Shown: positions 4,715-34,737 of the stretch, piece by piece | Position numbering within the stretch: the stretch's first letter is position 1 | Layout: each line of letters starts with the position of its first letter | Source: Candidatus Woesearchaeota archaeon | GTDB taxonomy: Archaea > Nanobdellota > Nanobdellia > Woesearchaeales > UBA12501 | NCBI GenBank assembly: GCA_016180035.1 | Contig: JACPCA010000010.1 | Coordinates: 1 to 39,390, forward strand | Reading direction: 5' to 3' | DNA length: 39,390 nucleotides | Position numbers and translations under genes: made by a program | The notes under the pieces: generated by a model | What the model saw: only the letters and a program-made list of their open reading frames with translations | Told to the model about the DNA's origin: nothing | Database searches by the model: none

Positions 4715-4754
4715 GACGTGGGAGAGATTGCTTTCGGATTGATATGGAAGAACC

Positions 4755-5014
4755 GGCTCTGTCCTAAATCTTTTAACGGAGGCACTGCCGCCTAGCGTAG
4801 TCTTAGACTATCTGGCGATACCTGAAGACTCGTTACGATTACGCTTGGTACCCATGCGAACGGAGCGCGGCAGTGCCTCCGTTAAAGGTGGTGCTATTGC
4901 GCTCTGTTCGAGCGTGCCAATCGCACGTATCCCGAGTATCCTAGCATCTGCTTAGGAGATCATGCACGGCGCTCGGCAATAGCACCACCTTTAATCGAGA
5001 TTTAGGACAGAGCC
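4755..5014. mobile_element. Non-autonomous palindromic element (family 1, copy A) with terminal inverted repeats and two internal long-stem hairpins
   Basis: Outer arms 4753-4771/4998-5016 (19 bp, perfect); stem 1 4772-4791/4867-4886 (20 bp, perfect); stem 2 4882-4900/4976-4994 (19 bp, perfect); flanked by perfect 9-bp direct repeat GGAAGAACC (4746-4754 and 5015-5023). Confidence 0.85.
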
Positions 5015-5100
5015 GGAAGAACCACCAGTAAGAACTTCCCTACTCCAGAGTACTCAATGATGGAAAAATTTATAAAGAATTCCTTCCTCACGCCCGGTCT

Positions 5101-12375: not shown

Positions 12376-12423
12376 TCAGGACATCTGTGCCAGCGGCTCT
12401 GTAGAAAATGTCGCCCTACATGG

Positions 12424-12493
12424 GGGCGCCGCCGTGCCTAAACGTTGTTTAGGTCTCTTTTATTTCCCACCTCGCCCGGGCAGGGTGGGAAAT
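12424..12493. mobile_element. Truncated palindromic element (family 2, copy B): GGGCGCCGCCGTG end plus core hairpin, right end missing
   Basis: 12424-12436 equals 27885-27897; core CCCACCTCGCCCGGGCAGGGTGGG is identical to the copy at 27923-27946. Confidence 0.75.
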
Positions 12494-27842: not shown

Positions 27843-27884
27843 GTTCCTGGTTACAGGTTTTTATAAAGTGTCCAATCTTATGTT

Positions 27885-27988
27885 GGGCGCCGCCGTGATT
27901 TTCTTTGCAAACTTTATTTTTTCCCCACCTCGCCCGGGCAGGGTGGGGAAAAAATAAACTTAATCGAGGTTTAAGCACGGCGGCGCCC
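27885..27988. mobile_element. Palindromic element (family 2, copy A)
   Basis: Terminal arms GGGCGCCGCCGTG 27885-27897 and CACGGCGGCGCCC 27976-27988; internal hairpin 27913-27958 (TTTATTTTTTCCCCACC..GGTGGGGAAAAAATAAA). Confidence 0.8.
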
Positions 27989-33365: not shown

Positions 33366-34343
33366 ATGGCTGGAACAAAGGATAGCATGGCAATGCTCGG
33401 CGTACTTGACTTCTTCCATAAGCAATGCGAGCAAGCTATGGCGCTGGGCAAGAATATCGCCCTTCAGCCTCCGATCAATGCGATCATCGTCGGCGGTGTC
33501 GGTGGAAGCGCGCTGGCTGGTGACATCCTTTCCTGTTACCTCCAGCACCGCGTTCCTTTCGTCGTCAACCGTGACTATGCACTGCCTGCCTGGATCAACA
33601 AGAACACGGCCGTGTTCATCATCTCTTATTCTGGCAATACTGAAGAGACGCTCAGCATGTACCGCCATGCAAGAAAAAAAGAGTGTAAGATAATCATTCT
33701 TGCGTCCGGAGGCCAGTTGATCGAAAATGCCAAGCGCGACAAGGTTCCCGTGATCGAGGTGCCGATGGGCCTGAACCCGCGCGACGCTATCGGCTACATG
33801 GCCATCCCCTTCATCAATGTCCTTCAGCAGTCCGGCATCGTGCCGTATTCCAAGGAATTGCCAGACCTCGTCCGCGTGCTCCGCCAGGATACGAAAGCAA
33901 AGGCCAAAGAGATTGCCGGAAAGCTGGTGGGCAAGATCCCGATGTTCTATTCTTCCGCCTCCATGTCCTGCGTCGCCAGGGCATGGAAGAACAAGATGAA
34001 CGAGAATGCGAAAATTCCGGCGTTCTGGAACGAGCTGCCGGAGATGAACCATAACGAGATTAATGGCTTCTCTCACCTGTTAGGGGAATACTTTGTCATC
34101 TTCATCTCCGATCAGGATGATGATCAGGCGATCAAGACAAGGATGGAAGCAACGCGGAAGCTCCTCTTAGGACAAGGCGTTCAGACCTTAGAGCTTCGCC
34201 AGTCCGGCGATAACCGCCTGGCGCGCGTGTTCTCGTCACTTCTTCTCGGAAGCTATGTGAGCTATTTTCTGGCGCTGGAGTACGGCATCGACCCAAGCCC
34301 TCTGCCGATGGTGGAGAAGCTGAAAGGGATGATACGGCGGTAG
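33366..34343 (+). CDS. SIS-domain bifunctional phosphoglucose/phosphomannose isomerase-like
   Basis: NAIIVGGVGGSALAGDIL, VFIISYSGNTEETLSMYRHARKK, PEMNHNEINGF. Confidence 0.9.
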   Translation: MAGTKDSMAMLGVLDFFHKQCEQAMALGKNIALQPPINAIIVGGVGGSALAGDILSCYLQHRVPFVVNRDYALPAWINKNTAVFIISYSGNTEETLSMYRHARKKECKIIILASGGQLIENAKRDKVPVIEVPMGLNPRDAIGYMAIPFINVLQQSGIVPYSKELPDLVRVLRQDTKAKAKEIAGKLVGKIPMFYSSASMSCVARAWKNKMNENAKIPAFWNELPEMNHNEINGFSHLLGEYFVIFISDQDDDQAIKTRMEATRKLLLGQGVQTLELRQSGDNRLARVFSSLLLGSYVSYFLALEYGIDPSPLPMVEKLKGMIRR

Positions 34344-34344
34344 G

Positions 34345-34657
34345 GGCTCTGTCCCGAATCTCCTCATGGGCGGTGCTGCAACAGAAAATGTTCCATTTTC
34401 TTAGTTGCGCTTGGCTTCGCTCAGCAACTGCCCAGCACCGTGCCCGGTCTTTCCAGCCAATGCGCGGATACTTGGTGGACGGTCGGATAGTAAACGCGAA
34501 CAGAGCGCAGCAGCACCGCCCATTTCAGGAGAGGAATGGCACTGCTGCGCTCCGTCGGCACGTATAGCCGGCCGTGATACCGAGTTTTTCATTCATTGAC
34601 AGGCAATGGATGACTTCGCTAGGCAGCAGTGCCATTCCCGACATTCGGGACAGAGCC
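34345..34657. mobile_element. Non-autonomous palindromic element (family 1, copy B, opposite orientation)
   Basis: Terminal arms 34345-34359/34643-34657 (15 bp, perfect); stems 34366-34379/34510-34523 and 34533-34548/34623-34638 (perfect); loop-edge motifs shared with copy A. Confidence 0.85.
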
Positions 34658-34737
34658 AGCGATAAGGAAAGAAAAAGATGGAAGAAAAGTAGCCAATAAC
34701 CGTAAAGTTTAAATAGTTGTAGCCTATAACTTCTTGT

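Follow-up and report, generated by a model that had tools for sequence, protein, structure and literature searches.

The 313-bp element at positions 34345-34657 of the window (the whole stretch of 39,390 nucleotides analysed here, from a Candidatus Woesearchaeota archaeon), designated copy B, is, taken by itself, very probably a MITE of an IS5-type element, and its interior is occupied by an inverted pair of a conserved hairpin module of about 105 nt. The outer element is of a known kind; the new part is the interior module, previously unnamed and with no description found in openly licensed papers, which is most likely a mobile, REP-like DNA hairpin carried here by IS5-type MITEs. That the module is conserved and dispersed is solid. 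A first-pass annotation of the sequence had recognised copy B and a second element, copy A, as one family. The family is real, but its outer element has turned out to be more ordinary than implied, namely a MITE with IS5-type ends, and the hairpin module is broader, being found in 21 genomes. The parts of the two copies are as follows.

34345-34657, minus strand: MITE copy B (313 bp, the nested 49-nt insert counted), from a family with at least 19 full copies in the genome
34345-34359: terminal inverted repeat of copy B, GGCTCTGTCCCGAAT
34643-34657: terminal inverted repeat of copy B, ATTCGGGACAGAGCC
34336-34344: left flank of copy B, GGCGGTAGG, a probable decayed 9-bp target duplication (6/9) overlapping the end of the isomerase gene
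34658-34666: right flank of copy B, AGCGATAAG, the other half of the decayed duplication
34532-34639, minus strand: hairpin module 1 of copy B, with stem GGGAATGGCACTGCTGC and core CTAGCGAAGT...ACGGAGC
34428-34510, plus strand: hairpin module 2 of copy B, in the orientation opposite to module 1; 32.8 bits, model positions 14-96
34380-34428: nested insert of 49 nt, a double hairpin (AACAGAAAATGTTCC...GCTCAGCAAC) that interrupts the stem of copy B's module 2
4755-5014, plus strand: MITE copy A, 260 bp, complete, without the nested insert
4746-4754: left 9-bp target duplication of copy A, GGAAGAACC
5015-5023: right 9-bp target duplication of copy A, GGAAGAACC
4775-4883, plus strand: hairpin module 1 of copy A; 76.9 bits with a model that contains copy A
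4884-4992, minus strand: hairpin module 2 of copy A, opposite in orientation to module 1; 70.3 bits, copy A again being part of the model

The reverse complement of 34345-34657 aligns over its full length with 4755-5014, and the loop motifs named in the first-pass annotation are conserved in this alignment. GGCTCTGTCC ends are present at both termini of both copies, and the stems indeed differ between A and B while remaining paired, every sequence claimed for them having been verified. As had also been stated correctly, a single nucleotide separates copy B from the isomerase stop codon (34341-34343). With the covariance model R2, which includes copy B, module 1 of this copy reaches 83.7 bits (E 2.5e-18), and the 5' stem strand of module 2 resumes upstream of the nested insert, up to 34379. 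Compared with shuffled sequence, copy B folds with a z-score of -8.9 as RNA and -9.9 as DNA, and copy A with -13.8. Two features had escaped the first reading: the extra 49-nt double hairpin (34380-34428) within the second hairpin of copy B, and the homology of hairpins 1 and 2 to each other in inverted orientation.

The genome assembly that contains the window (1.08 Mb, 66 contigs, 94% complete) harbours at least 19 full copies of the family along with several truncated ones, the copies being 260-313 bp long with no plausible gene inside. Perfect 9-bp target duplications surround 14 of the 19 full copies, and the flanks of two more match at 8/9. In copy B, GGCGGTAGG and AGCGATAAG agree at 6/9, as reported earlier; within the family, this value is attained by only 0.9% of mismatched left/right flank pairs, and with most full copies duplicated at 9/9 the description of a decayed 9-bp duplication is a fair one. 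Both sides of the terminal repeat have changed between the two copies as described (CCTAAAT/CCCGAAT), but this is weaker evidence for pairing, since inverted repeats at transposon ends have other causes.

Terminal repeats of the GGCTCTGTCCTRAAT type together with 9-bp duplications also border IS5-type insertion sequences of about 900 bp in related genomes, and because the ends and the duplication length are the same, copies A and B are assigned to the MITEs of an IS5-type element. In other genomes, GGCTCTGTCCTRAATCTC ends are found on elements of 896-904 bp with IS5-type transposases, and elements of 896-909 bp with the same or related ends encode a protein that matches DDE_Tnp_1 and the NCBIfam IS5-type transposases. 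Further short elements, present in several genomes within the order, possess the same ends and 9-bp duplications. An IS5-type transposase is present in 39 of 194 relatives. None was detected at E 1e-5 in the window's own assembly (94% complete, 66 contigs), and the mobilising enzyme is therefore missing or lost; past mobilisation is possible without a resident transposase, given that a MITE with a lost source needs none in the genome. Near the isomerase homologues of six relatives the hairpin module is absent, in line with an insertion in this lineage; no exact empty site for copy B was found, none of the relatives examined being a close enough strain.

Other assignments of the outer element were considered. 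An IS256/Mutator-type transposase (PF00872), suggested by the end sequence, is absent from the window's genome, and a weak PF00872 match in G001, a genome of the same genus, was rejected because it has no matching ends. A composite transposon on contig C57 (2919-4851, ends 1.9 kb apart) was likewise discarded: only vapBC-like and methyltransferase-like genes were seen there by eye, and there is no duplication around it.

Several further elements deserve mention. Some transposase loci end in GGCTCTGTAGAAAATCTC, which corresponds to the ends of a sister MITE family; a copy of that family at 12395-12482 of the window is truncated, has GGCTCTGTAGAAAATGTC ends and an inner hairpin TTTCCCACCTCGCCCGGGCAGGGTGGGAAA, and overlaps the predicted start of the downstream open frame. 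In other genera, the same GGCTCTGTCCTAAAT ends border MITEs of about 165 bp (L189, L190, L192, L197-L200), which carry one hairpin of a different kind (GGTTAGCATC...GATGCTAACC); the stem of this hairpin, too, varies from copy to copy, and the changes affect both of its sides. Two copies at unrelated loci, L009 and L010 (G000, C57 and C45), are both truncated at one internal point (GTCGCTAGG) and have no target duplications. Finally, a comparison of L005, L007, and L011 with L031-L034 reveals mosaic copies that join subfamily B stems to subfamily A-like loops, which suggests gene conversion between copies.

Inside the element, both hairpins are one and the same module of about 105 nt arranged in inverted order, so that hairpin 1 has its homologue in the reverse complement of hairpin 2. 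The loop is about 75 nt long, mostly 74-77 nt among 105 modules outside the window's genus. The core has the form 5' GC-[CNA]-GC-[GNA]-GT ... AC-[GNA]-GC-GC 3', that is, a C-N-A bulge, GC, a GNA-GNA internal loop, and GT-AC, and the N of the bulge is hypervariable while its neighbours are invariant. A sheared G.A geometry of the GNA/GNA loop is predicted from the sequence of the core. Among 30 modules from the window's genome and G001, 13 of the 17 stem base pairs show double changes; there are 116 double-changed cells and only a handful with a one-sided (G.U) change, a result far above the shuffled and slid controls. The accompanying figure of 100% pairing is biased at the outer stem ends, because trimming there relied on pair extension; this matters less for the inner pairs.

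The covariation was evaluated by a tree-aware randomisation with a purpose-written script (FastTree, parsimony changes re-placed on branches, APC-corrected G test). Within the genus, the eight best of 3,216 column pairs are all stem pairs, of which only one taken alone lies beyond the whole null distribution. With 60 modules from 13 genomes, all 12 of the highest-ranking column pairs (out of 4,887) had been predicted to pair, and seven of them lie beyond all null values. The inner pairs 24-100 (CG to UA) and 29-95 (UA to CG) covary, as does the non-canonical pair 27.97 (A.G to C.A), all of them ranking near the limit of the null; further coupled changes of the inner helix can be seen by eye in G120, G175, and G159. 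Pair 30-94 of the proposed structure received no support from covariation. These results, together with a covariance-model search of archaeal genomes, bear out the initial idea of a dispersed family kept paired by selection or copying. The possibility that stems arise by inverted copying of the target was rejected, because stems within one genome resemble each other (TTGACAATGCTGC and GTGACAGTGCTGC in G156). A related long hairpin, GGGCGCCGCCGTG...CACGGCGGCGCCC, lies at 27882-27988 of the window, with the same CCCACCTCGCCCGGGCAGGGTGGG centre and without GGCTCTGT ends.

Of 194 genomes of the order, 13 contain the module according to the first covariance model, R1, which reports as many as 17-19 copies in one genome. 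The second model, R2, was trained on 60 diverse modules and recovers the module in 16 of 371 genomes sampled from the phylum, all of them belonging to the same order (the share of other orders in this sample was not established), and the two models combined give 21 module-bearing genomes. In 99 control loci, mostly bacterial and 756 kb in total, a convincing score was obtained in one only, a Woesearchaeota contig. In a DNA-pattern scan of genome contigs, the matches listed were mostly due to chance, but three of them fell on Woesearchaeota contigs; viral contigs gave two pattern matches, about the number estimated for chance, one of which scored 18 bits with R2 (E 0.35) and the other nothing.

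The module also occurs outside the outer element described here: it stands alone between genes in other families (e.g., G156, G068, and G091), forms inverted pairs in G016, G169, and G007, and is found within MITEs with other ends in G005 (GGCTCTGTAGAAA) and G007 (GGGTGCAGTCAAGT). Among 80 elements, a long open frame is overlapped by 6, and 72 could be assigned to a gap between two genes. Where the flanking genes are co-directional, 35 of 42 elements are nearer to the stop codon (median 8.5 nt) than to the start codon (62.5 nt), a bias that would be equally expected from selection sparing promoters. No gene recurs convincingly beside the modules, and at the sampled loci the modules of congeneric species have no neighbouring genes in common, which suggests turnover of the module. 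For standalone modules, neither a target duplication nor an empty site has been demonstrated.

Covariation of this strength around a conserved core is typical of structured RNAs, and the elements often lie directly behind stop codons; the module might accordingly be a structured non-coding RNA, or an RNA element of gene 3' ends, which has spread with mobile elements and whose RNA folding is under selection. However, selection at the RNA level is expected to leave G.U in large excess over A.C, and among 1,050 inner-stem pairs the mismatches comprise 27 G.T and 16 A.C (p = 0.13 against equality). Since both are about equally frequent, pairing is probably needed in the DNA, the balance itself being only suggestive. 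Moreover, modules face both directions within every inverted pair as well as relative to the neighbouring genes, and no Rfam match was obtained for the window elements or the modules of other genomes (only for tRNAs elsewhere in the loci). The mismatch balance and the two orientations favour pairing at the DNA level, without proving it, and an RNA element is judged unlikely.

Still less probable is that the element is only a MITE with passive hairpins, in which template switching during replication copies one arm onto the other and covariation arises without function. Watson-Crick pairs make up nearly all of the stems and G.T intermediates are few, as such copying would produce, and hairpin correction in replication could be the source of some of the stem covariation without selection. 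But this reading leaves unexplained the near-invariant core motifs beside a hypervariable bulge base, the coupled change of a non-canonical pair, the constant loop length of about 75 nt, and the presence of the module outside these MITEs, in other families.

In copy B, the insert (34380-34428) occupies the shoulder of the module 2 stem. C64b, C16b, and, in module 1, C36:8333 have a related insert at the corresponding place, which makes four elements of the window's genome; another related one resides in an element of G007 (L204), and G169 contains a comparable insert (L263, L264). The common position may point to a favoured insertion site, or to common descent combined with exchange between the hairpins. 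The 49-nt double hairpin is also partly matched at C58:13067 and C14:9897, and one MITE copy (L074 1339-1693; G000, C16) contains a further insert of about 91 nt with two hairpins between modules 1 and 2. That the module is an attC-like recombination site, folded as a single strand and used by a tyrosine recombinase with the nested inserts as recombination products, would suit variable stems with a fixed structural signature and the shared insert position in four copies here, along with the comparable insert of G169, but is very improbable in view of hairpin ends without conserved RYYYAAC/GTTRRRY boxes, the lack of an integron integrase over the cut-off in the 21 module-bearing genomes, and the fact that no cassette arrays were seen.

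The explanation that is somewhat favoured as a whole is that of a trans-mobilised MITE carrying a paired DNA hairpin read by a protein. Copy B would be a non-autonomous MITE mobilised by an IS5-family DDE transposase acting in trans, an enzyme recognising the GGCTCTGTCC ends and making 9-bp target duplications; the cargo of the MITE would be an inverted pair of the ~105-nt module. The module would act as folded DNA, extruded or single-stranded, in which a stem of free sequence presents a fixed core (the C-N-A bulge, two G-C pairs, the GNA/GNA internal loop, and GT/AC pairs) to a protein reading that shape. The module itself would have been dispersed through the order, probably by its own mobility, and the IS5-type MITEs of this genus would have picked up the pair and multiplied it. 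No protein recognising the module has been found.

More tentatively, the module may represent a new class of mobile structured DNA, in which a sequence-free stem with a fixed bulge and GNA/GNA core is read by shape and moved by a protein, and which is dispersed in Woesearchaeota-type archaea, riding in unrelated MITEs, with neither a RAYT-type Y1 transposase nor an integron integrase as the explanation. Woesearchaeota-type DPANN genomes are small, yet carry this dispersed, structure-conserved hairpin, in which conservation at the level of shape, with compensated stems, occurs in what is apparently DNA. The covariance model can find the module in any genome, and the questions raised are which protein reads the C-N-A bulge and the GNA/GNA loop, and whether that protein moves the hairpin. 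The case is also a caution that archaeal intergenic repeats may covary strongly without being RNA.

Parallels with known systems are partial. In GNA mini-hairpins of the d(GCGNAGC) type, CGNAG can form GNA/GNA with sheared G.A pairs, and the module core has CGNAG on both strands; however, those hairpins are a DNA structural motif rather than a genetic element, and the corresponding geometry in the module is deduced from its sequence. Integron attC sites likewise fold from a single strand into hairpins of variable sequence whose structural features are conserved, whereas in the module it is the outer stem that varies and the inner core that is conserved. No RYYYAAC or GTTRRRY boxes were read by eye at the module ends, where the outer stems vary, and the integron integrase TIGR02249 exceeded the cut-off in none of the 21 module genomes, with no match at all in the window's genome; sub-threshold matches occur in all 14 control genomes as well.

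The REP/BIME/REPIN repeats of bacteria are mobilised by RAYT Y1 transposases (PMC2817692, PMC3116915). Like them, the module is a dispersed extragenic palindrome, often in inverted pairs, but it is about 105 nt long against 20-40 nt for REP, its stems vary freely around a fixed inner core, and it has no association with a Y1 transposase. The latter (PF01797) is absent from the window's genome and from 11 of the 13 module genomes, being present in two of these 13 versus 66 of the 181 others, and no conserved flanking tag of the REP tetranucleotide type was seen by eye at the modules. The closest resemblance of the outer element is to IS5-derived MITEs, since copies A and B are short and gene-free, belong to a family with many intergenic copies and 9-bp duplications, and have ends common to an IS5-type insertion sequence. 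Unlike in such MITEs, the interior consists of two covarying hairpin modules instead of a deleted transposase gene, and the hairpin module also exists without these ends.
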